Of a stretch of 64,000 nt of DNA, positions 53,824 to 64,000 are shown piece by piece. The notes beneath the pieces are model-generated. The model had not been told where the DNA came from. It was given only the letters and a program-made list of their open reading frames with translations, and searched no databases. Numbering within the stretch: position 1 is the stretch's first letter; every line of letters begins with the position of its first letter. The stretch comes from Paenibacillus jilunlii (GTDB lineage Bacteria; Bacillota; Bacilli; Paenibacillales; Paenibacillaceae). The position numbers and the translations under genes were made by a program. Location: NCBI RefSeq assembly GCF_900102965.1, contig NZ_FNGM01000003.1, forward strand, positions 248,001 through 312,000, given 5' to 3'.

Positions 53824-55569
53824 ATGATTGTAGAAGATCACCTTATATTGTGGAATCAAGCTGTGCTGAAAATTATGGATGTACGGCGCATCGAGCTGCC
53901 GGTCAGCGGGCAGCCACATCTCATGCGGCTTTCAGAAAGTACTATATTATTCACGGCACAAGGCCGGGCCCGGCTGCTGCTGGCCGGGGAAGAGAGGGTA
54001 TTGGAGAATGGATATGTTTTTCATGCGGGTAAAGATGCAGTGCTCAAGGTCACGGACGTAGCTGTTCCATTGAGCTGTTATCGGGTTCAGTATAAGGCCG
54101 ATTTACCTCTGTCCTGCAGCCGGGAACTGCTTGATTTGCTGGAGCGTACAAGGCCATTTGATAGACATTATGGTTTGGCAGCCACCAATACCGCTTCGCT
54201 ATCTGCCACCTTATCCCGTATGGTTCAGGAATGGGAACGGCCGGAAGCACTCGCTAAGCTGCAGGTAAAGTTATTGTTTTACCAGTTCATATGCGAGCTG
54301 ATGGATCAGCTGCAGCGCCGTAAGCCAGAGCCTGCTTCACCGGATATGGTCCTTCAAGCTGTCCGGTATATGGATGAAAACTATACGCATCCGATTACTG
54401 CGGACACTCTAGCGGAGCTGTTCAAATGCAGCTCACGCACCATGCAGCGGCTGTTCAAAAAACGGCTGGCGGTTGGACCAATTGACTATCTGCTGCAGGT
54501 GCGCATGGACCAGGCCAAGTCGATGCTCAGCCGTACAAATGCCGGGCTTAAAGAAATTTCTGAAGCTGTAGGTTATGCGGACAGCTATTATTTCAGCCGC
54601 TTATTTAAACGCTGCACGGGCATTTCTCCCAGCACGTACCGGGAATGGACACGGCAATCTGGCGAAGCTGAATCAGAAAGACTGTCTGTGCCCGTTGGAA
54701 AATCCGCAAGTGAACTGCTGAATACCGCTTTCCGCCGCTCCTTGCGGACAATCGTCCATCTTAAGGGCGAATTCCCGCTCGCGCGGCTGCCGGAGAAAAT
54801 TGCCGTGCTGGACCCCCAGTTTACGGACCATATGCTTGCTTTGGGTGTGCAGCCGGCCGGAAGTGTTACGGTGAGCGGGGACCCGGCTGGCTTCCCTGAG
54901 TATCTGCTCGGCAGCCTGCGCGAGGTACGGACCTTGGGGACGAAAAATGAACCTAATCTGAAAGGGCTGCAGGCGCTCGCGCCGGATCTGATCCTCTGCA
55001 CCGAGTTTCAAAAAAGTATTTACGGCAATCTCGCGCAAATTGCGCCAACCATTATGCTCAAGCGAAATCACGACTGGAAGGAAACCTTGCGGATCATCGG
55101 GCGTATCGTAGGCAAGGAAATAGAGGCGGAGCAGATCCTGCAGAGGTACAAACAAAAAACCGGACGGCTGAAAACGGTCCTGGCCGCCAAGCTGCATGGA
55201 CAGTCGGTATCCGTCATCCGTCCGCAGGACAATCATATCAGACTGCATACAAGCGCTCACCGGACGGCTGCGATTTTATACGGTGATTTGGGACTGTGTC
55301 CTCCGAAGCAGGCCGTTCACCGCCAACGCACCAGTTCGATGATTCCCCTGGAAGGCTTGCGTGAGCTGGATGCCGACCATTATTTTGTATTGACCGGCGG
55401 CAAATTGGACACCTGGCCGGATGAGGTTCAGAATACAGCGACCTGGAAAAACCTCCGTGCTGTTCTGCAGGAGCATGTGTATCCTGCCAAAATGAGCATG
55501 TGGATCGCTTATTACGGTCCGATTGCGTTGAATCGGGTGGTAGATCAAGTGGAGGAAGTGTTCCTGTAA
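53824..55569 (+). CDS. Btr-like regulator: AraC domain fused to siderophore-binding domain
   Basis: A 581-residue protein. The N-terminal sensor part runs to about 165, then comes an AraC-type helix-turn-helix domain (about 175-275; ELFKCSSRTMQRLFKK, VGYADSYYFSRLFKR). Residues 315-581 are a class III binding-protein domain (EKIAVLDPQFTDHMLALG, WIAYYGPIALNRVVDQV). This is the layout of B. subtilis Btr, which binds Fe-bacillibactin and switches on uptake genes. The domain is clearly related to the lipoprotein encoded next, so both probably recognise the same siderophore. It has no signal peptide. The start ATG follows CAGGAG. Confidence 0.92.
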   Translation: MIVEDHLILWNQAVLKIMDVRRIELPVSGQPHLMRLSESTILFTAQGRARLLLAGEERVLENGYVFHAGKDAVLKVTDVAVPLSCYRVQYKADLPLSCSRELLDLLERTRPFDRHYGLAATNTASLSATLSRMVQEWERPEALAKLQVKLLFYQFICELMDQLQRRKPEPASPDMVLQAVRYMDENYTHPITADTLAELFKCSSRTMQRLFKKRLAVGPIDYLLQVRMDQAKSMLSRTNAGLKEISEAVGYADSYYFSRLFKRCTGISPSTYREWTRQSGEAESERLSVPVGKSASELLNTAFRRSLRTIVHLKGEFPLARLPEKIAVLDPQFTDHMLALGVQPAGSVTVSGDPAGFPEYLLGSLREVRTLGTKNEPNLKGLQALAPDLILCTEFQKSIYGNLAQIAPTIMLKRNHDWKETLRIIGRIVGKEIEAEQILQRYKQKTGRLKTVLAAKLHGQSVSVIRPQDNHIRLHTSAHRTAAILYGDLGLCPPKQAVHRQRTSSMIPLEGLRELDADHYFVLTGGKLDTWPDEVQNTATWKNLRAVLQEHVYPAKMSMWIAYYGPIALNRVVDQVEEVFL

Positions 55570-55640
55570 GCGAAATAGCAGATTGGCTGTGCTATGAAGA
55601 GGGTGGACAAACGGCGAGGCAGCCTGTTCCTTGACATCAT

Positions 55641-55684
55641 CACTGCTGAATCCGGATTTTCAAATCGGGCGGCAGTGTTTTTTT
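55641..55684 (+). terminator. Intrinsic terminator after the Btr-like gene
   Basis: CACTGC (55641-55646) pairs with GCAGTG (55672-55677), with additional inner pairing, followed by a run of seven T. Confidence 0.75.
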
Positions 55685-55759
55685 GTGTCGCCATAATCCA
55701 TTGCGGATGTCGCAAGTATCCATTGCCGGGAAGGACCTGAGTCATTATAGTGTTGTAAT

Positions 55760-55778
55760 GATGATGAGTATCATTATC
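55760..55778. promoter_or_regulatory. Fur box upstream of the siderophore-binding lipoprotein gene
   Basis: GATGATGAGTATCATTATC matches the 19-base Fur consensus at 16 positions and lies 27 bases before the start codon. Confidence 0.8.
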
Positions 55779-55804
55779 AATTAGGGATAGGAGGGACAAC
55801 ACTT

Positions 55805-56818
55805 ATGCATCCGAATTTAAAAGGCCCGGGGGTCATCAGCCTGTTGATATGTCTTGTTATGCTGCTTGGGGGTTGCTCCAACCCATCAAATCAAGGCAGC
55901 GGGAAAACGCAAGGAACAACAGCGGATCAGACACAAGCCGCACCAGAACCGGTCGCAGGCTCAAGCTCCGAAGCAAAGCCCGCACCGGCAGCACCTGTTA
56001 CGATTCAACATTTGAAGGGCGAGTTGACGCTGGAGAAAGTACCCGAGAGAATTGTCGTGCTGGATGTTCAGTACGCAGATGAGCTGCTGGCGTTGGGAAA
56101 GAAGCCGGCGGGGAGCGTAGTAGCCGGAACCGACAATGCAGTTCCCGAATATTTGGGAACTCAAATGGACAATGTTACTTTAATTGGAACGTATGAAGAA
56201 CCGAACGTGGAAGCGGTCATTTCGCTGAACCCGGATCTTATTATCGGCACGGAGTTCCATGACAAAATTTACGATGAGCTGCAGAAAATCGCTCCGACGC
56301 TTATCTTTGAGCGCAATGAAGACTGGAAAACGGTAATGTTGAAGATCGGGCAGGTTTTGGGCGAGCCAGAACAGGCACAGCAGCTGATCGATGATTACAA
56401 TCAGAAGGTGAGCGGTCTAAAAGCTGCGCTGGCCGGCAAGATGAAGGGACAGACGGTTGCCTTGATCCGTCCGCGGGATAGCATGATTCGTCTTCAAAAC
56501 ACTTCGCATCGAACCTCCCAGATTCTGTACGGCGACCTTGGACTGACTCCTCCCCCAATGGCCGTAAACAGCTCGGATACAAGTTCGATGATCTCGATTG
56601 AAGTTTTGCCGGAGCTTGGGGCTGACCATATCTTCCTGCTTCAGGATGATACGAACAAGGCACTGACGGCTGAATTTCAAAGTACCTCGGTCTGGAAAAA
56701 TCTGAGTGCGGTAAAAGACAACCGGGTATATGAAGAAAATACGGCACAATGGATCGGTTATTATGGACCCATAGCCATTAATCTGATTGTCGATCAGATT
56801 GCCGAGGCACTTAACTAA
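55805..56818 (+). CDS. Iron-siderophore-binding lipoprotein (FeuA/FecB-like)
   Basis: A 337-residue lipoprotein with lipobox MLLGGC (Cys24), a Ser/Thr/Ala tether, and a class III binding domain (ERIVVLDVQYADELLALG, NPDLIIGTEFHDKIY, IGYYGPIAINLIVDQI). It captures a ferric siderophore at the cell surface. It closely parallels the binding domain of the preceding regulator, including the HRTSQILYGDLGL versus HRTAAILYGDLGL blocks. No permease or ATPase gene follows, so the channel must be encoded elsewhere. Ribosome site TAGGAGG. Confidence 0.93.
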   Translation: MHPNLKGPGVISLLICLVMLLGGCSNPSNQGSGKTQGTTADQTQAAPEPVAGSSSEAKPAPAAPVTIQHLKGELTLEKVPERIVVLDVQYADELLALGKKPAGSVVAGTDNAVPEYLGTQMDNVTLIGTYEEPNVEAVISLNPDLIIGTEFHDKIYDELQKIAPTLIFERNEDWKTVMLKIGQVLGEPEQAQQLIDDYNQKVSGLKAALAGKMKGQTVALIRPRDSMIRLQNTSHRTSQILYGDLGLTPPPMAVNSSDTSSMISIEVLPELGADHIFLLQDDTNKALTAEFQSTSVWKNLSAVKDNRVYEENTAQWIGYYGPIAINLIVDQIAEALN

Positions 56819-56855
56819 AGCAATGTTACACTAAGAATCCAAGGAGGGGTTGTGT

Positions 56856-57617
56856 TTGAATATTCAGTCCCCGCTCGCACAAGAGGAATGGGCTGGATTA
56901 AGCCAATATTTCAGCTTGCATAAGCATACCGGACCTTGCAGCGCATATTCTGTAAAAGCTTCAGAGTTAATTGAAGTTCAGGCCTGTTCTGATTACCTGG
57001 ACCGGTTGAGCGTACTTCTGGATTCCCCCTCGAGAGGAGTTACAGCTTCACAATTTATAAAAAGGTACGCCTTCTTAACCGCTGTCCCTCTATTGTACGC
57101 CATGACAGTGTACAATAAGGGGCTGGACTTTTCGGCCGGAAACTGCTGGCTTGCCTCACCGCCGGGTTACTCCTGGCTGGAATATGTCAGTCTGGCCGAA
57201 GCAAATGCCGCTATGCCTGAAACTGGCGAACGGCAGGGTTGGCGCGATATGTTGCTTCAGGCGCTTTTTGCCGGGAATTTGGGCCGGCTAATCCAAGTGA
57301 TGTCCGGAGTGGCGCATGTGCCGAAAGCAATATTGTGGGAAAATGTGGCAGTGCGCGTATTCTCGCTCTACGAGAAAAGAATCGGCCTGTCAGTGGACCC
57401 GCAGGAGAAGGCCCGGGGACAGGCAGACTTCCAGTACTTGATTGAGCAGGCTCCAGGCGCCCTATTCGGAGAAAAACACAATCCGTTGCGCCGTTTCTAC
57501 AGCCGTCCGGCCAGCTCACCGGTCACTGGTTCTCCCTTGCGGGTCCGCAAAACCTGCTGCTTCTACTATGAAGTCGCGGGCAGCGCGGATTACTGCTCCA
57601 ACTGTCCGAAGAAGTGA
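56856..57617 (+). CDS. FhuF-like siderophore-iron reductase (2Fe-2S)
   Basis: The protein has about 253 residues. Its C-terminus has the cysteine pattern of FhuF-type ferric reductases, CC-x11-CxxC (TCCFYYEVAG, DYCSNCPKK); I count 11 residues between the pairs, against about ten remembered for FhuF. The body is helical. It would reduce Fe(III) from the imported siderophore in the cytoplasm. TTG at 56856 is eight bases from AGGAGG; a TTG at 56850 abuts that site. It follows the binding protein within 40 bases, probably in the same transcript. Confidence 0.85.
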   Translation: MNIQSPLAQEEWAGLSQYFSLHKHTGPCSAYSVKASELIEVQACSDYLDRLSVLLDSPSRGVTASQFIKRYAFLTAVPLLYAMTVYNKGLDFSAGNCWLASPPGYSWLEYVSLAEANAAMPETGERQGWRDMLLQALFAGNLGRLIQVMSGVAHVPKAILWENVAVRVFSLYEKRIGLSVDPQEKARGQADFQYLIEQAPGALFGEKHNPLRRFYSRPASSPVTGSPLRVRKTCCFYYEVAGSADYCSNCPKK

Positions 57618-57735: not shown

Positions 57736-58722
57736 TTATCGAACAGATTCAATCCGAACCGCCAGTTGTGCCAATTCCTCCAGGAGCTGTTCTTCGAGGC
57801 TGATTATTTCATGCATTTTTTTATGAATCTTCCGCCGTTGAGATAGCTTGTTGCCTGAACACATCACTTTGATCATGAATTGATTTATAAGATTCCACTG
57901 CTCTCCTGAATGCTGATAGCCCTCAGCAGCTTGAGAGAGTGCGGTCAGGCCGGCCTCACGGTTAAGCAGACGCAGGAACAGGCTGAACCGGATCCGGTGG
58001 ATTGGCAGGGTGTTGGCTGCCAGCATGAAGTTAGAGCTGTATTCAGCAGGACAATCGGCGGTGATCCCCGTATTCAGATAGGTGTCGGCATAGGCTCTGA
58101 GGTGAGCGGCAACCTGGCCCGGCTGAACCTGATTGAAAGGGGTGCTCAGCATTCCTTGAAGCGTAGTCTGCCAATCTGTGTATGAACGCGAAGAATCGCA
58201 AAGCTCAAATAATGCATAGAAATGGCAGGCTTGCTGAAAGACATCGAAATCCACAGCTTCAAGCTTTTTGCCATAGTAGGCATCCGTTAAATAGATGATG
58301 TGGCTTGTACGGTCCAGTCCAACGGCGAGACAGGCATGGCTGGTATGCAGCTTGCGGAAGGCCAGACACCAGGGGCAGTCATAGGAATCGAATCCGACCA
58401 GGACCGGCATTCCTGAAGACAACCGGCTCTCCAGCATGTCGAGCATGAAGTTCTTATCCATTTCTGGCTCCTTCCGTTCAATATAAGTGAACATAAGGCC
58501 ATGGTACGCAGACAGAGATTCTGTACTGATCCGCGGCAGGGCTAACCGCTCAATCAACGGCTGATCCGGGAACTGCTGTTCTTCAAAGGACACCTGCCAG
58601 GCATTTCCGTACATGCACTTGCTGTCCTTTCCCTGCCATTGCGCCACAGAATGAATGCAGTCATCGATGCAGCTGCGGAGTGTGGGGTAGGGGGTGCTCT
58701 TAACGGGAACAATGTTCAGCAA
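57736..58722 (-). CDS. BtrH-like protein (butirosin H N-terminal-type domain)
   Basis: A 328-residue cytoplasmic protein. Residues 1-150 contain SCIDDCIHSVAQW, CMYGNAWQVSF, GMPVLVGFDSYDCPW and HTSHACLAVGLD, which resemble the BtrH N-terminal (papain-like) fold found in biosynthetic clusters. In butirosin synthesis BtrH moves an amino-acyl group from a carrier protein to the sugar core. The C-terminal half is helical and unassigned. The start is TTG at 58722, ten bases after AAAGGAG. It overlaps the AraC gene by 23 bases. It could be a transferase or a peptidase; I infer acyl transfer from the ACP nearby. Confidence 0.65.
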   Translation of the reverse strand: MLNIVPVKSTPYPTLRSCIDDCIHSVAQWQGKDSKCMYGNAWQVSFEEQQFPDQPLIERLALPRISTESLSAYHGLMFTYIERKEPEMDKNFMLDMLESRLSSGMPVLVGFDSYDCPWCLAFRKLHTSHACLAVGLDRTSHIIYLTDAYYGKKLEAVDFDVFQQACHFYALFELCDSSRSYTDWQTTLQGMLSTPFNQVQPGQVAAHLRAYADTYLNTGITADCPAEYSSNFMLAANTLPIHRIRFSLFLRLLNREAGLTALSQAAEGYQHSGEQWNLINQFMIKVMCSGNKLSQRRKIHKKMHEIISLEEQLLEELAQLAVRIESVR

Positions 58723-59620
58723 TGTTCATCATCTCCTTTGCCGACAAAAAATGACTGCGAAACCGGTTTCGATAACAAGCAGGAGTCATCCCGCTGTATT
58801 CGCGGAACAGCCGGTAGAAATATTTCATGTCGTAAATTCCGACCTCCAGCGCAATAGCCTGTATCCCAAGCTTCGTGAACATCAGCAGCATGCAGCTGTA
58901 TTTCATGCGGATTTCCTGGAGCATCTGGATGTAGGATCTGCCGGTCTTTATTTTGAATAACCGCTGAAACTGGCGGGAGCTCATCGCAATCTGCCGGCTA
59001 ATCTCCTTCAGTGTGATTTTCTCGCTGAAATTACTGATCATATACAGAATGACGTCATGCAGCGGATCTTCGTCAATCTCGGGCTGCTGAGTGAAGGGGA
59101 CGGCTGCAGCAGGCAGTATGAGGTTCGCCAGCTTGAACAGCAGCGGGTACAGCTGCTGTTGATCCTCAGCGGAACCATTGTTATGAATCCCCTGCATTCG
59201 GCGGAGTAAAAAGGAAAGCTCCACATTATTATCCCTGTATCCGAACCATTGCTTCAATTCCAGAAGCTTCAGCAATGGAAACATGTCCTCTTCAGAGAAT
59301 TGTCCTGACAGTTCGCTGGGAATCCTGCTAAGCTCAGGCCTGAGCATACAATTGAGAATGATGAGCGGCTGGGAACCGGTCAGGTCCTGCGGGTGAAAGA
59401 CATGGGACACCCCAGGCGGTATAACTAGCAAATCCCCTTGAACAACCTGCATTTTATCCTCAGCTGCCAGATGAATTCCTTCCCCCTGAACCACATAAGC
59501 GAGCTCCAAAAAATCATGCTGATGACGTACGGAAGTGACCGTTTCCTGAGTCAGGAGCATTTGAACCGGTGAACAGGAGTCAAATAGATATTCCCCAGTA
59601 AATACCGGAAAAACTTCCAT
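58700..59620 (-). CDS. AraC-family regulator with cupin sensor domain
   Basis: The 306-residue regulator has an N-terminal cupin-like domain (residues 35-110; RHQHDFLELAYVVQGEG, GDLLVIPPGVSHVF) and two helix-turn-helix motifs in the last 100 (EISRQIAMSSRQFQRLF, EVGIYDMKYFYRLFREY). The start at 59620 follows GGAGG at eight bases; the frame is open to 59701 without support. It is divergent from the acyl carrier protein gene and co-directional with the BtrH-like gene, so it probably controls the whole cluster. Confidence 0.9.
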   Translation of the reverse strand: MEVFPVFTGEYLFDSCSPVQMLLTQETVTSVRHQHDFLELAYVVQGEGIHLAAEDKMQVVQGDLLVIPPGVSHVFHPQDLTGSQPLIILNCMLRPELSRIPSELSGQFSEEDMFPLLKLLELKQWFGYRDNNVELSFLLRRMQGIHNNGSAEDQQQLYPLLFKLANLILPAAAVPFTQQPEIDEDPLHDVILYMISNFSEKITLKEISRQIAMSSRQFQRLFKIKTGRSYIQMLQEIRMKYSCMLLMFTKLGIQAIALEVGIYDMKYFYRLFREYSGMTPACYRNRFRSHFLSAKEMMNIAEHCSR

Positions 59621-59776
59621 AGACAAGCCTCCGTTTCCTACTTCCTTAGGATATAGACCTGGAATCCACCCTAGTATAGCTGAATATTTTGGCGCATTCA
59701 ACCATATATTAACATCTGGTTTTTTGGTATATTCATTTCATTCATTCCTAATATGCACACTGAAAGGGGTATACAC

Positions 59777-60019
59777 ATGCAGCAGAAGGTCATTGAGATT
59801 ATCGCTGAAATCAAGGAGGAGCCGGGCCTGCTTCAGACGCTGAACGGGGCTTCCGATCTGACTCTGGATGCCGCACTCGATTCGCTGCAAATCATCAACT
59901 TTATTCTGAGAATCGAAGACGAATTCGATATCGAAGTAGATTTCGATACCTTTGATCTGGAACATTTGAAATCGGTAGACCGTTTCTCCGCTTATGTTGC
60001 CGGGCTTACCGTGCGATGA
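59777..60019 (+). CDS. Stand-alone acyl carrier protein
   Basis: The 80-residue protein has the phosphopantetheine site at Ser36 in LDSLQIINF and acidic helices (EDEFDIEVDFDTFD) typical of carrier proteins. Such small stand-alone ACPs carry amino acids or short acids in natural product pathways. ATG at 59777 follows AAAGGGG at seven bases; the ATG at 59753 lacks a site. Its stop overlaps the ATP-grasp gene start (ATGA), so the pair is translationally coupled, as with BtrI/BtrJ in butirosin. Confidence 0.9.
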   Translation: MQQKVIEIIAEIKEEPGLLQTLNGASDLTLDAALDSLQIINFILRIEDEFDIEVDFDTFDLEHLKSVDRFSAYVAGLTVR

Positions 60020-61356
60020 GGAAGGCTGTGCACTGCGGCAGCTTGGAGTCGGAACGGTACTGGCGGGAGGAAGACCTGGCCGCTCTGCCGTCCATTCCTG
60101 ATGCGAGGGCGCTGGCTATCGTTCAGGCGATGGATGAAATGCTGTTTGTCTTTTGCAGGAGCGGGGATATTCTATTAACCCGTCATGGCATGGACCAAGC
60201 TCAATATGACTATCTGCAATCTCTCAAATATTCATTCAAGACGAATATGAATCCGTTAATATTAGGAGCCCAAGAACCGGACACAGACCAGAACGCACTG
60301 AATGTGTTTGAATTGCTGGGCAGGCTAGGCCCCGGGCAGGAGCCGGATAGGTTAATACCGGAAGGATCGCTGCTTGAACCTTTTGCCGTGCTTCCCGGGA
60401 CGGAGGAGGCGGTTAGGCGCTATAAGCTTCTGCCCGGACTCCCGGATGAACAGACCGTGCGCACAGTGAACACCAAAACCTACTCTGCTGCTATGCGGGA
60501 TAGGCTGTCGCTGCCGAATATCGCCCGGATCGTTCACAGTGTGGAGGAGCTGCTGCAATCAGGACAGGAGCTGCTGGAGAAGGGGTCTTTTCTGATCAAG
60601 GATGAGTACGGTGTATCCGGCAAAGGAAATCAGCTCGTGGACTCTGACCGCATGCTGCGCAGAATTGCCGGGTATCTGGAGTCCAGCCGGAACAAGGATA
60701 AAAGAATCCGCTTTGTGCTTGAGCCCCTGTTGAACCGGGAGACAGACTTTTCCTGTCAGTTTCACATCGATGCTGAAGGCCAGATCTCGATATTGTCTGT
60801 TCAGCAGCTGGTCAATCATGGCTTTGCCTTCGGTGAGTCCCATTCCCCGGAGCCGACGCTGCTCGAAACGCTGAACCGGGAAGGCTATTGGGAAATCATG
60901 CACAATATTGGACGGGAGCTGTATGCAGACGGTTATCATGGCGATGTATGCGTGGATTCCATGCTGTTGCGTGACGGGAGTCTCGCACCTCTGGTAGAGA
61001 TCAATGCCCGCAAGTCGATGAGTTTGATTAAGCATAATATAGACCGCCATCTCAAGCATGAGGGGATGCACACCTGTCTAATACAGGTACCGCTCGCAAC
61101 CATGGGAGAGGTTTGTTATGGAGAGCTGCTGCAGCGGTTGGAGGAGGCTGGCATATTATTTTCGCCGGCAGAGGGAGAAGGCGTGATTCCTTTGTCTTCA
61201 GGTACACTCCAGCCTCAGGTCCCGTCACGTTCCGCGGGTTCTGCCAAGGGTAAGCTGTATGCCTCACTCGCCTACCGGAATGAAGACCGCAAAAACAGAC
61301 TCACAGGCAAGCTGGAAGAATCGCTTTTGCGCAATGGCTATACTATACTGCGTTAA
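60016..61356 (+). CDS. ATP-grasp ligase, probable ACP-loading enzyme
   Basis: A 446-residue protein. The central part has ATP-grasp features: the lysine and Gly-rich loop in FLIKDEYGVSGKG (about residues 190-203), RFVLEPLLNRETDFS, and the metal-binding motif LVEINARKS (about 328-337). The N-terminal 180 residues would be the pre-ATP-grasp part. Such enzymes activate a carboxylate as acyl-phosphate and join it to an amine or thiol. Its coupling to the ACP gene suggests it loads the carrier, as BtrJ does with glutamate. The substrate is unknown. Confidence 0.85.
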   Translation: MRKAVHCGSLESERYWREEDLAALPSIPDARALAIVQAMDEMLFVFCRSGDILLTRHGMDQAQYDYLQSLKYSFKTNMNPLILGAQEPDTDQNALNVFELLGRLGPGQEPDRLIPEGSLLEPFAVLPGTEEAVRRYKLLPGLPDEQTVRTVNTKTYSAAMRDRLSLPNIARIVHSVEELLQSGQELLEKGSFLIKDEYGVSGKGNQLVDSDRMLRRIAGYLESSRNKDKRIRFVLEPLLNRETDFSCQFHIDAEGQISILSVQQLVNHGFAFGESHSPEPTLLETLNREGYWEIMHNIGRELYADGYHGDVCVDSMLLRDGSLAPLVEINARKSMSLIKHNIDRHLKHEGMHTCLIQVPLATMGEVCYGELLQRLEEAGILFSPAEGEGVIPLSSGTLQPQVPSRSAGSAKGKLYASLAYRNEDRKNRLTGKLEESLLRNGYTILR

Positions 61357-61360
61357 CAAG

Positions 61361-61450
61361 TGGAAACGGCTGCGCCGTCCTTAGAGAAGCTTATCCTTCC
61401 GAAGCAGCGATACTACGTATCGCTTTCAGGTACTCGTTTCAGCGGGAAAT
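61361..61450. repeat. Structured, probably dispersed repeat element
   Basis: The 90 bases between the ATP-grasp and glycosyltransferase genes hold nested inverted repeats. GAAACG (61363-61368) pairs with CGTTTC (61435-61440). Inside lie ACGGC-tgc-GCCGT (61366-61378) and the eight-base stem AGCGATAC/GTATCGCT (61406-61424) with a three-base loop. There is no T-run. I recall similar elements scattered in Paenibacillus genomes, but cannot check. It does not code. Confidence 0.55.
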
Positions 61451-61504
61451 AGAAGGAATTTATAGCGCGAAGAATATAAATTATATTTTGAAAGGAACCC
61501 TCCA

Positions 61505-62626
61505 ATGAACAACACCGTGACTGTTCTATGTTCTGGTTTTGGTCTGGGCTTCTATGTGCCCGGCCTGCTGATTGCGCGGAGACTCAAGGCACTTGGCATC
61601 AAGGCGGAGATTGAGGTTTTTGAAACATTAATGTCTGACAGCAAAAAAAAGCTGACGGACGACAGCCGCAAAGCGTACCAGAAGAATTTTGCGGTAGCAC
61701 TGACCTCTCAGAAAATACCGGCGGATATCCGGAGCAGCCTTGATTCATCAGCCGTTGAAGGGTTATTCCAGCAATGGCGGCAGGAAGAAAGACAGCACTT
61801 CATAGTATTATCCGGGCACTGGGTACATGTGATGGACAGATACCGTGAAACTGCCGGTTTGCCTATGTATGCCGACTTGCTATATATTGATGCCGATCTT
61901 TCACCGTCCTGGAAGAATCTCCGCAGGCTGAATCCCGGTTATGCGGAAGGTTACCATGAAGTAAGCATGTATGATCCCGAGAAGCGGGAGATACTCTGCA
62001 GCATAGATGCCGGCCCCCTGGAAGCGCTGCCCGCTACGGCAAGAAACGGGAGATTGGTTGTTCATGGCGGCGGCTGGGGAATTGGAACCTTCCGCGAGAA
62101 GTTCGATGCCCTGGAGTCGGCAGGGTATGAGCTGGATATCGCCGCCTACAGTACTGAGGAGATTGGAGAGGCAATCCACGGAAGACGTTATTATATGAAC
62201 GACCCGGAGTGGCCGACCTGGCTCCGCGACAGCAGCGGGCAGTATACCTTCCCGCCTTTTGCAGAGGTAACCGGCAACCAGGCCAACCACTTTCCGCCCT
62301 GCCGCCACTATCAGGAGGGGATGTATGGTGTCATCCGGCAGGCATCTGCTGTAATCAGCAAACCGGGAGGAGGGGCCTTGATTGATTCATTGGCCTCAGG
62401 CACTCCGCTGGTGCTGCTGGACCCTTTTGGCCCGCATGAGAAGATCAACAGCGATCTGTGGGTAGAGCTTGGTTACGGCATTCGTTACGGGGAGTGGGCC
62501 GGGACAGGCTTTGACCGGGAGGAATTGCTTAAGCTGTCGGACAACCTCCAGGCAGCCAGAGGCCGATATCCAGATTATGCCGCAAGTTATGCGGAACAAT
62601 TATCCGCAGCAGAAGGGAGAAGCTAA
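61505..62626 (+). CDS. GT-B fold glycosyltransferase (UGT/MurG-like)
   Basis: A 373-residue protein with the two-lobe layout of UDP-sugar glycosyltransferases. It starts VLCSGFGLGFYVPGLLIA, and the donor-binding lobe has VVHGGGWG and SKPGGGALIDSLASGTPLVL with PFGPHEKINSD near residues 285-325. It probably moves a sugar onto a small molecule in the cluster. ATG follows AAAGGAAC. It is separated from the ATP-grasp gene by the structured repeat, and its stop overlaps the next gene's start (TAATG). The family is fairly clear; donor and acceptor are unknown. Confidence 0.85.
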   Translation: MNNTVTVLCSGFGLGFYVPGLLIARRLKALGIKAEIEVFETLMSDSKKKLTDDSRKAYQKNFAVALTSQKIPADIRSSLDSSAVEGLFQQWRQEERQHFIVLSGHWVHVMDRYRETAGLPMYADLLYIDADLSPSWKNLRRLNPGYAEGYHEVSMYDPEKREILCSIDAGPLEALPATARNGRLVVHGGGWGIGTFREKFDALESAGYELDIAAYSTEEIGEAIHGRRYYMNDPEWPTWLRDSSGQYTFPPFAEVTGNQANHFPPCRHYQEGMYGVIRQASAVISKPGGGALIDSLASGTPLVLLDPFGPHEKINSDLWVELGYGIRYGEWAGTGFDREELLKLSDNLQAARGRYPDYAASYAEQLSAAEGRS

Positions 62627-63819
62627 TGCAGCCTACCAGCAGAGTGAACCTGGATGCCAAATCCTTTGAGGCTTTGAAACGCACGATCAAGAATGTCGTC
62701 ATTCCGCACAGAGAACGTAAGCGTGATCCCGGTTTCAAAACCGTTATGCCGGAGATAATGTCACTTAAGCTGACCAACCGCTGTAATCTCCGCTGCAAGC
62801 ATTGCTACCAATGGAATGAATCCGGCTATCATCATGATATGGACACCGCCGAGCAGAATCTGGATATGGATTTGGAGATGATCCGCAAGCTTTTGCAGGA
62901 AACGGATGAAGCACAGTCCCGTCTGTATTTATGGGGAGGCGAGCCGCTGTTTCACCGGGATACGAAGCAAATTTTGGAGCTTCTGAAAGAGCATCCCCGC
63001 GATACGACGATCTGCACTAATGCTTATCTGATTCATAAGTATGAAGAAGAGCTGTGTGCAATCTCGGACAATCTGGAGCTGCTGATTCCGATAGAGGGGT
63101 TCGAGGAGGAGCATGATTTTCTGCGCGGCAAAGGATCGTTTCACAAAGTGATCGAGAACGTGGAACGGCTGCTTGAACTGCGCAAGCAAGGCCGCTTCCG
63201 CGGCCGGATCTCTGTGCATAATGTGATTAATGATAATATGATCGGCAGATTGTATGAGCTGGTGGAATTTTTTGAGCAAAAGGGTGTCGATCTGGTGCTG
63301 CTCTGCTTCCCCTGGTATATTTCTGCAGAAACCAGCCTGGAAATGGACCGCTTTTACGATGAACACTTCCAGTGGCTGGCGGAGCTTGCGCCGGATCACC
63401 GGAGCAGCTGGCATGCCTTCAAATACCATATTAAGCCCGGCAATGTCACAAGGCTAACCGAAGACCTGAAACGGATCAACAGCAACACTTGGCAAAATAC
63501 AAGAATCCGTTACCAGCCGGGGCTCGACTTTGATGAAATCGAAGATTTTGTGGCCGGCAGGCCGATGGCGTCCCGCAGTACGTCGAAATGTCTGGCGCTC
63601 AGCACCAGGGTTGATATTGCCCCGAACGGCATGGTGAGTGCATGCAAATTTTTTGGCGAGCTGGCCATTGGCAACGTGAATGAGTTGTCCCTGACGGAAA
63701 TATGGAACTCGGACCGCTACGACCGGCTGCGGCGGATTCTGGATGAAGGCTTGTCGCCAGCTTGTTCCAAATGCAATGTGCTGTACCTGAATACCTATGC
63801 TGCGCTGACACATGTATGA
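62626..63819 (+). CDS. Radical SAM enzyme with SPASM-type C-terminus
   Basis: A 397-residue enzyme. Cys53, Cys57 and Cys60 form the CxxxCxxC cluster site (NRCNLRCKHCYQW). LYLWGGEPLFHRD gives the SAM-binding GGE-type motif. The C-terminal 80 residues hold further cysteines (KCLALST, VSACKFFGE, PACSKCNV), a SPASM-like auxiliary cluster region. Such enzymes oxidise sugars (BtrN) or modify peptides. No small precursor peptide gene is visible next to it, which favours a sugar or small-molecule substrate. It overlaps both neighbours. Confidence 0.93.
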   Translation: MQPTSRVNLDAKSFEALKRTIKNVVIPHRERKRDPGFKTVMPEIMSLKLTNRCNLRCKHCYQWNESGYHHDMDTAEQNLDMDLEMIRKLLQETDEAQSRLYLWGGEPLFHRDTKQILELLKEHPRDTTICTNAYLIHKYEEELCAISDNLELLIPIEGFEEEHDFLRGKGSFHKVIENVERLLELRKQGRFRGRISVHNVINDNMIGRLYELVEFFEQKGVDLVLLCFPWYISAETSLEMDRFYDEHFQWLAELAPDHRSSWHAFKYHIKPGNVTRLTEDLKRINSNTWQNTRIRYQPGLDFDEIEDFVAGRPMASRSTSKCLALSTRVDIAPNGMVSACKFFGELAIGNVNELSLTEIWNSDRYDRLRRILDEGLSPACSKCNVLYLNTYAALTHV

Positions 63820-64000
63820 AGAGTGAATGTGGACCAACTGCCTATCGGCTGGGTATCCTGGGCTCCTCGAACATCGCTGCGCCAGCTATACTGGAGCCTG
63901 CACGGTATGTTCGGACTGTCAGTGTAGCCGCAATCGCAAACCGGACATTTGAAAAAGCGGCAAAAATGGCGGAAGCTTACCAGATTCCTTATGTAGCGGG
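63816..64000 (+). CDS. Gfo/Idh/MocA-family oxidoreductase, N-terminal part
   Basis: The gene overlaps the radical SAM stop (ATGA) and runs off the window end; 61 residues are visible. They show the start of a Rossmann fold (YRLGILGSSNIAAPAIL, VSVAAIANRTFEKAAKMA), typical of NAD(P)-dependent sugar dehydrogenases of this family. It would oxidise or reduce a sugar ring in the same pathway. The rest lies outside the window. Confidence 0.85.
   Translation, partial: MKSECGPTAYRLGILGSSNIAAPAILEPARYVRTVSVAAIANRTFEKAAKMAEAYQIPYVA

Follow-up and report, generated by a model that had tools for sequence, protein, structure and literature searches.

What can a bacterium make with a compact group of genes that encodes a stand-alone acyl carrier protein (ACP), an ATP-grasp ligase, a glycosyltransferase (GT) and a radical S-adenosylmethionine (SAM) enzyme side by side? 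This question is raised by one end of a 64,000-nt stretch of the 7.0-Mb genome of Paenibacillus jilunlii (G000:C24:248001-312000, hereafter the window), in which two divergent operons begin near 59.7 kb (Table 1). On the minus strand, the gene of an AraC-type regulator is followed by that of a protein resembling BtrH of butirosin biosynthesis, and on the plus strand the ACP, ATP-grasp, GT and radical SAM genes are followed by a gene for a sugar oxidoreductase of the Gfo/Idh/MocA family (Gfo/Idh). A preliminary description of the locus, all of whose named genes are present with open frames, proposed an amino-acylated sugar or a glycosylated amino acid made along butirosin lines; the gene set fits such a product, while a butirosin-type pathway is not supported. 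At close to an even chance, the locus is a small-molecule cluster whose four-gene core would, by prediction, assemble a glycosylated amino acid on its carrier protein.

The evidence that carries this reading comes from the conservation of the core. A search by ATP-grasp similarity alone brought up 103 loci; of the best 80, 77 contain the complete set of ACP, ATP-grasp, GT-B-type GT and radical SAM genes, and in 77 the GT and radical SAM genes lie within 8 kb of the ATP-grasp gene on the same strand. The three incomplete loci are contig ends, two of which (L156 and L157) stop inside the ATP-grasp gene and one (L165) inside a GT gene. An ACP gene is found within 8 kb of the ATP-grasp gene in all 80 loci and gives the ligase an ACP partner, an ACP lacking a loading partner having been named as an objection in the preliminary description; in 67 loci it lies directly upstream (65 counted, plus L156 and L157 by their coordinates). 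In 60 of these 77 complete cores the genes stand in the order ACP-ATP-grasp-GT-radical SAM, and the core occurs in Paenibacillus, Cohnella, Clostridium, Lachnospiraceae and one metagenome-assembled genome of Margulisbacteria. Because this gene content recurs across genera, it is not due to chance. The conserved unit is the four-gene core and not the BtrH-like gene, which goes beyond the preliminary description.

The same association was followed through the 150 own and related genomes by radical SAM and GT scans with cluster-derived profiles (cut-offs of 1e-70 and 1e-10), which placed 58 of 62 radical SAM matches within 6 kb of a GT match and linked 58 of 66 GT matches to a radical SAM match. 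All 49 radical SAM-bearing genomes also carry the GT; the two lie on different contigs in four genomes (G156, G165, G177, and G179), and three genomes have a GT and no radical SAM match at that cut-off (full length in G125, fragments in G023 and G141). The Fisher p value of this co-occurrence is 2e-36, which is no true probability because the genomes are related. In another set of 61 loci, which shares some genomes with the 80-locus set and whose counts are not summed with it, clustering recovered the ATP-grasp in 60, the GT in 50, the radical SAM enzyme in 48 and the ACP in 37. Greedy frame picking, which missed even the ATP-grasp of L035, explains part of this shortfall, and genuine absences explain the rest, i.e., ATP-grasps that are only distantly related (24-30% identity) and belong to other kinds of cluster (L084, L086, L088, and L090-L093), one locus (L089) of G125, the genome with a GT and no radical SAM match, and two loci (L052 and L076) whose radical SAM gene is on another contig. 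Five of the distant ATP-grasp relatives (L084, L086, L088, L090, and L091; 26-30% identity) stand near KASIII-like and pyridoxal phosphate (PLP) decarboxylase genes with no member of these GT and radical SAM families nearby, and are apparently parts of other carrier-protein clusters.

ATP-grasp relatives at E <= 0.001 were encountered in 81 of 200 own and related genomes, distant paralogues included. The distribution is patchy, with 52 of the 150 own and related genomes and 4 of 398 genomes of the phylum, these four being the own genome, two of the same family and G738. This patchiness bears on the possibility that the genes serve to decorate the cell envelope, a DltC-like carrier and the ATP-grasp ligase loading an amino acid destined for a spore or wall glycan built by a MurG-like GT. 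Such a role is improbable: besides the distribution, no DltB-type membrane acyltransferase was found among the core proteins, and the surroundings vary (KASIII-like, methyltransferase, PLP decarboxylase, and ABC-2 export genes) as they do in specialised metabolism. Indeed, the patchy distribution and the variable tailoring genes together favour specialised metabolism over an envelope role, and spore-coat or cell-wall sugar synthesis, which would have undone the preliminary proposal, is not favoured by where the genes occur.

Carrier protein and ligase both possess the residues expected of their families. In the ACP, the Ser44 of a DSL motif, the phosphopantetheine site of carrier proteins, is invariant in 23 aligned sequences, and the genome encodes two ACPS-family candidates for the phosphopantetheinyl transferase. 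The ATP-grasp protein scores 23.0 bits against PGM1_C (cut-off 22.5), and a profile search of PDB led to 8ynd, an "ATP-grasp peptide ligase." Its K195/D196, GVSGKGN loop (G199-N205), D314 and E328-x-N330 are invariant or nearly so in 18 sequences, and we take them to be the ATP-binding Lys, the Gly-rich loop and the metal-binding D...E-x-N residues of the family. PGM1-type ligases (8ynd, PGM1_C) belong to the same superfamily, the alignment covering mainly the catalytic E-x-N region and the C-terminus, but they join free amino acids or peptides, whereas here an ACP gene lies near the ligase gene in all 80 loci. Judged by family models, housekeeping ligases, a grouping with which would have spoken against the preliminary proposal, resemble it weakly (biotin carboxylase model, E 0.008). 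The ligase is predicted to load the ACP. One close homologue, P0013, shares 83% identity and is labelled "[Butirosin acyl-carrier protein]--L-glutamate ligase" by its source.

Against Pfam and NCBIfam models, the GT gave no family above cut-off. Its confident predicted structure is of the GT-B kind, with two Rossmann-like domains and a C-terminal nucleotide site, and matches CalG, SnogD, MurG and UGT structures along the length. A member of the same GT family (P0161) in Ruminiclostridium cellulolyticum, the closthioamide organism, is 46% identical to that of the window. The radical SAM enzyme has its CxxxCxxC motif at C53, C57, and C60 and four further Cys near the C-terminus (C322, C340, C380, and C383), all of them invariant in 24 sequences. 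These four residues fit one auxiliary cluster, which we take to be of the twitch type, over a full SPASM set, which corrects the term "SPASM radical SAM enzyme" used at first; the SPASM model itself is matched (Table 1). The analogy drawn with BtrN holds at the auxiliary-cluster region (residues 312-390, E 5e-6) and nowhere else. Among the PDB matches of the Gfo/Idh protein, a "probable oxidoreductase" (4had, E 2.2e-32) ranks first, and a sugar 3-ketoreductase (3rbv, E 1.4e-25) ranks highest of those assigned a specific function; the protein scores under the cut-off of an inositol 2-dehydrogenase model (E 6e-23).

A pathway to a glycosylated amino-acid product could run as follows. A phosphopantetheinyl transferase encoded elsewhere would prime the ACP at Ser44 (step 1), the ATP-grasp ligase would form the acyl phosphate of an amino acid and from it a thioester on the ACP (step 2), the GT would move a sugar from a nucleotide sugar (step 3), and the radical SAM and Gfo/Idh enzymes would oxidise the sugar or re-set its stereocentres (step 4). 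In the class of the window, defined by 22 loci (own included) fetched with an ATP-grasp at least 69% identical, a BtrH/CcbD-like cysteine transferase would then take the aminoacyl group from the ACP onto its Cys18 and hand it to an amine, most likely one on the sugar (step 5). The AraC-type regulator would control the divergent operons, and a nucleotidyltransferase encoded at 64896-65693 would protect against the product or modify it. The data show genes, motifs, linkage and the predicted folds of two proteins (BtrH-like and GT), and from these we infer loading, glycosyl transfer, radical remodelling and acyl transfer to an amine. The order of the steps and the placement of the acceptor amine on the sugar rather than elsewhere are the most uncertain elements of the scheme.

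Step 5 depends on the nature of the BtrH-like protein, whose name rests on structure because its score against Pfam BtrH_N is 20.5 bits, under the cut-off of 29.7. The confident predicted model combines a papain-like N-terminal domain with a helical C-terminal domain, a fold which appears to be that of CcbD (celesticetin), CtaG (closthioamide) and AziU3; these carrier-protein-dependent transferases are matched over 282-294 of the 328 residues, AziU3 being the top match. Its C18, H129 and D147 are invariant in 22 sequences and are placed like C11/H128/D144 of CtaG, C19 of CcbD (PDB titles) and His131 of CcbD, an equivalence that is presumed from these positions. Several homologues carry the UniRef name "Butirosin biosynthesis protein H." A BtrH_N match alone is too common to be diagnostic, since a scan of 295 genomes of the family gave matches in 156, of which 118 were over the cut-off. 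A separate and strongly conserved BtrH_N protein, mostly of 325-340 aa (E 1e-40 or better), was encountered at 40 places in 39 of these 295 genomes; the copy of the own genome (L098, G000:C24:501450-501836) lies apart from this cluster.

Several observations weigh against the proposed scheme. Transferases were counted within 10.5 kb in 78 loci (L156 and L157, without a complete ATP-grasp frame, were dropped, their ACP being checked separately). A BtrH-like protein of the window's type is present in 13 loci and a BtrH_N relative of the HC type in 16 others, 32 have only a protein of a family called F10, and 17 have none. A Cys-type transferase (BtrH-like or HC-type) is thus found in just 29 of 78 loci and stands outside the universal core, so step 5 cannot be general. 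The HC-type family has an invariant His-Cys pair (10 sequences), and two of its members (L142 and L117) exceed the BtrH_N cut-off. The BtrH-sized F10 proteins (15 aligned, e.g., L173:16358-17401) have a near-invariant His and no conserved Cys, and may be a non-catalytic or differently working Cys-less relative of the BtrH-like fold, the shared fold being a sequence-based guess. In the BtrH-like model, confidence is low for loop 115-126, a PDB profile search with the BtrH-like alignment returned neither CcbD nor CtaG nor anything useful, and the comparison with the HC-type profile is weak (probability 7%, E 0.005, collinear); as profile comparisons are weak or empty, the relation to known transferases rests on predicted structure. 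AziU3 is an enzyme of azinomycin biosynthesis and not a sugar enzyme. In a family-model scan, the ACP is equally near DltC (E 2.6e-7) and other ACPs. No aminotransferase or nucleotide-sugar gene was seen in the window's own cluster, which makes the amine on the sugar an assumption. Finally, the PLP decarboxylase of one related cluster (L142) passes the threshold of the lysA model for diaminopimelate decarboxylase; BtrK belongs to the same ornithine/diaminopimelate/arginine decarboxylase type, and since the L142 enzyme passes the lysA threshold, "BtrK-like" denotes a likeness only.

A sugar amine would not be needed if the amino acid were glycosylated by the GT (on N, O or S) while bound to the ACP, the glycoside were remodelled there by the radical SAM enzyme, and the BtrH-like protein served only to release or condense the completed unit. 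This course of events is less likely than transfer to an amine, although it deserves more credit than an envelope role. The GT and radical SAM genes are tied to the ACP and ATP-grasp genes as tightly as these are to each other, and such equal linkage of all four fits joint action on one carrier-bound intermediate. Moreover, the BtrH-like proteins are variable, as expected of a late step, and AziU3, the top structural match, acts in azinomycin biosynthesis and not on a sugar. On the other hand, the other full-length matches, CcbD and CtaG, join carrier-bound acyl groups to amines.

Returning to aminoacyl transfer in the class of the window, this class comprises seven to eight genes, the core being accompanied by the BtrH-like, AraC, Gfo/Idh and nucleotidyltransferase genes. 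The divergent pair of AraC and BtrH-like genes noted in the preliminary description is present in all 22 class loci (own included). Reading past position 64000, as that description advised, the Gfo/Idh gene runs to 64844 and is followed by the nucleotidyltransferase gene (L002:9897-10694 in locus coordinates), which recurs in 20 of the 22 class loci (own included) and, where the cluster is rearranged (L113-L115), lies next to the gene for AraC or for the BtrH-like protein; by this recurrence, it probably belongs to the system. Its product is weakly like aminoglycoside nucleotidyltransferases (PDB E 0.69) and MntA-type enzymes. Its designation as a resistance gene was set aside, a PDB match of E 0.69 being too weak for such a claim.

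Elsewhere the accessory genes differ. Within 8 kb and on the same strand, an ABC-2 membrane subunit is encoded in 52 of 78 loci, an ATP-binding cassette (ABC) ATPase in 50, a Gfo/Idh protein in 41, a PLP decarboxylase in 11, a KASIII-like protein in 9, a sugar nucleotidylyltransferase in 9 and a methyltransferase in 7. One locus (L114) has a glucose-1-phosphate cytidylyltransferase (over the model cut-off), an NAD epimerase and a nucleotide-sugar dehydrogenase; two (L142 and L154) have a PLP decarboxylase, a second ATP-grasp and a BtrH_N-family protein of the HC type; and in Lachnospiraceae bacterium 3-1 (L155) an APH-type phosphotransferase gene (L155:14687-15748), then a MatE exporter gene, lie beside the core. 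Tentatively, and with less assurance than for the window's own cluster, these clusters may represent a so far unrecognised class of carrier-protein-templated glycoside natural products that Paenibacillaceae have in common with Clostridia and Margulisbacteria. In such a class, the radical SAM enzyme would remodel a sugar or glyco-amino acid tethered to the carrier protein. Their product would be diversified by interchangeable modules, i.e., BtrH-type transfer, KASIII-type acyl transfer, PLP decarboxylation with a second ATP-grasp, cytidine diphosphate (CDP)-sugar supply, ABC-2 export and protection by a nucleotidyl- or phosphotransferase.

How does the locus compare with known systems? An ACP, an ATP-grasp ligase and a BtrH-type protein occur together in butirosin biosynthesis as BtrI, BtrJ and BtrH, and its BtrN, like the enzyme described here, is a radical SAM protein with one auxiliary cluster. 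The joint occurrence of these three proteins, the butirosin names of the ATP-grasp homologue P0013 and of several BtrH-like homologues in UniRef, and the weak aminoglycoside-nucleotidyltransferase likeness of the following gene (over the NTP_transf_2 cut-off) could suggest a cluster for an aminoglycoside side chain of the butirosin type. We regard this as very improbable. A Pfam/NCBIfam scan of the 13 proteins encoded between 53.8 and 68.7 kb, the stretch to which it was limited, revealed no deoxystreptamine, BtrK-, BtrO-, BtrV- or BtrG-type gene, and membership in this pathway was rejected for that stretch; the preliminary description had itself seen no 2-deoxystreptamine genes, and its butirosin analogy is not supported as to the pathway. 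In addition, the core with its GT and radical SAM enzyme differs from the butirosin set, and the BtrH-like protein is under the BtrH_N cut-off, the comparison being one of gene content and family models.

In lincosamide biosynthesis, CcbD/LmbD act with the carriers CcbZ/LmbN, no ATP-grasp is known to load the carrier, and there is no core of radical SAM enzyme and GT. The structure alignments of the BtrH-like protein with this group have 11-15% identity. CcbD transfers proline from the carrier protein to its own Cys and then to an amino sugar by means of a Cys-His-Glu triad (PMC12945683), whereas Cys-His-Asp is predicted for the window's protein. Closthioamide of R. cellulolyticum involves a trio of predicted ATP-grasp CtaD, peptidyl carrier protein CtaE and CtaG (PMC6772006). 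The combination of carrier protein, ATP-grasp and papain-like transferase is already known from butirosin and closthioamide. Closthioamide biosynthesis yields poly-beta-alanine thioamides with CtaC, while the window has a GT and a radical SAM enzyme in its core; no CtaC-type gene was found among the 13 scanned proteins.

What sets the present core apart from this known kind of system is its dedicated GT and radical SAM enzyme. No description of the ACP/ATP-grasp/GT/radical SAM core was found in the open PMC literature, subscription journals and preprints being outside this scope, and to our knowledge there would be no precedent for radical SAM chemistry on a glycoside bound to a carrier. If the proposed reading is true, overlooked clusters in soil Bacillota and some anaerobes make sugar-amino acid compounds without non-ribosomal peptide synthetases or polyketide synthases, and clusters made only of such stand-alone genes may evade the usual searches for signature genes. 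The four-gene core offers a precise handle for genome mining, and the clusters of the window's class are small enough to be expressed in a heterologous host. The nucleotidyltransferase, like the APH-type kinase of a Lachnospiraceae cluster, may point to aminoglycoside-like compounds against which the producer protects itself; if so, they would be of interest as antibiotics.

Table 1. Features of the Paenibacillus jilunlii locus, in window coordinates.
Feature	Position	Strand	Evidence
BtrH/CcbD/CtaG-like cysteine acyltransferase, 328 aa (predicted)	57736-58722	-	Predicted nucleophile C18 with H129, D147
AraC-type regulator, divergent	58700-59701	-	HTH_18 E 2.6e-18, AraC_binding E 1.4e-9
Stand-alone acyl/aminoacyl carrier protein (ACP)	59753-60019	+	PP-binding E 1e-6; Ser44 in DSL
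ATP-grasp ligase, predicted ACP loader	60016-61356	+	PGM1_C above cut-off; PDB 8ynd E 1.5e-8; conserved motifs
Interspersed repeat between ATP-grasp and GT genes, outside pathway	61357-61500	.	46 matches in own genome
GT-B glycosyltransferase	61505-62626	+	Predicted GT-B model
Radical SAM enzyme, four auxiliary-cluster Cys (twitch type)	62626-63819	+	Radical_SAM E 4.1e-19, SPASM E 1.9e-13
Gfo/Idh/MocA sugar oxidoreductase	63816-64844 (window holds 5' part, 63816-64000)	+	Rest read on same contig
Nucleotidyltransferase	64896-65693, beyond window	-	NTP_transf_2 over cut-off; GS...DxD motif

Some details of gene layout may be added. The homologues suggest that the ACP probably starts at 59777 instead of the position given in Table 1, and the AraC and BtrH-like genes overlap by 23 bp. 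On either side of the cluster, two groups of genes were considered and rejected as parts of it. Downstream genes for a major facilitator superfamily (MFS) protein and an MGT protein (65924-68688) have counterparts in the listed gene strings of 3 of the 21 other class loci (MFS in L054; MGT in L055 and L056), and the genes at 53824-57617 are absent from the gene strings listed for orthologous loci. The latter encode an FhuF-like ferric reductase, a binding protein of the siderophore type and an AraC regulator to which a periplasmic-binding-protein domain is fused, and constitute a probable siderophore uptake locus.

The tight gene overlaps noted in the preliminary description were located at 60016 (ATGA), 62624-62628 (TAATG) and 63816 (ATGA); such packing does not extend to the junction of the ATP-grasp and GT genes, which are 148 bp apart because an interspersed repeat of about 140 bp occupies the gap. 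Many of the matches of this repeat in the own genome span only its part 73-137, and RNA folding of the gap gave no sign of structure (z -0.34). In the nine closest loci of the 80-locus set (L104-L112) the gap measures 16 bp in seven and 56 bp in two; judged by gap length, the repeat is absent from all nine, and its copy in the window's operon looks like an insertion.

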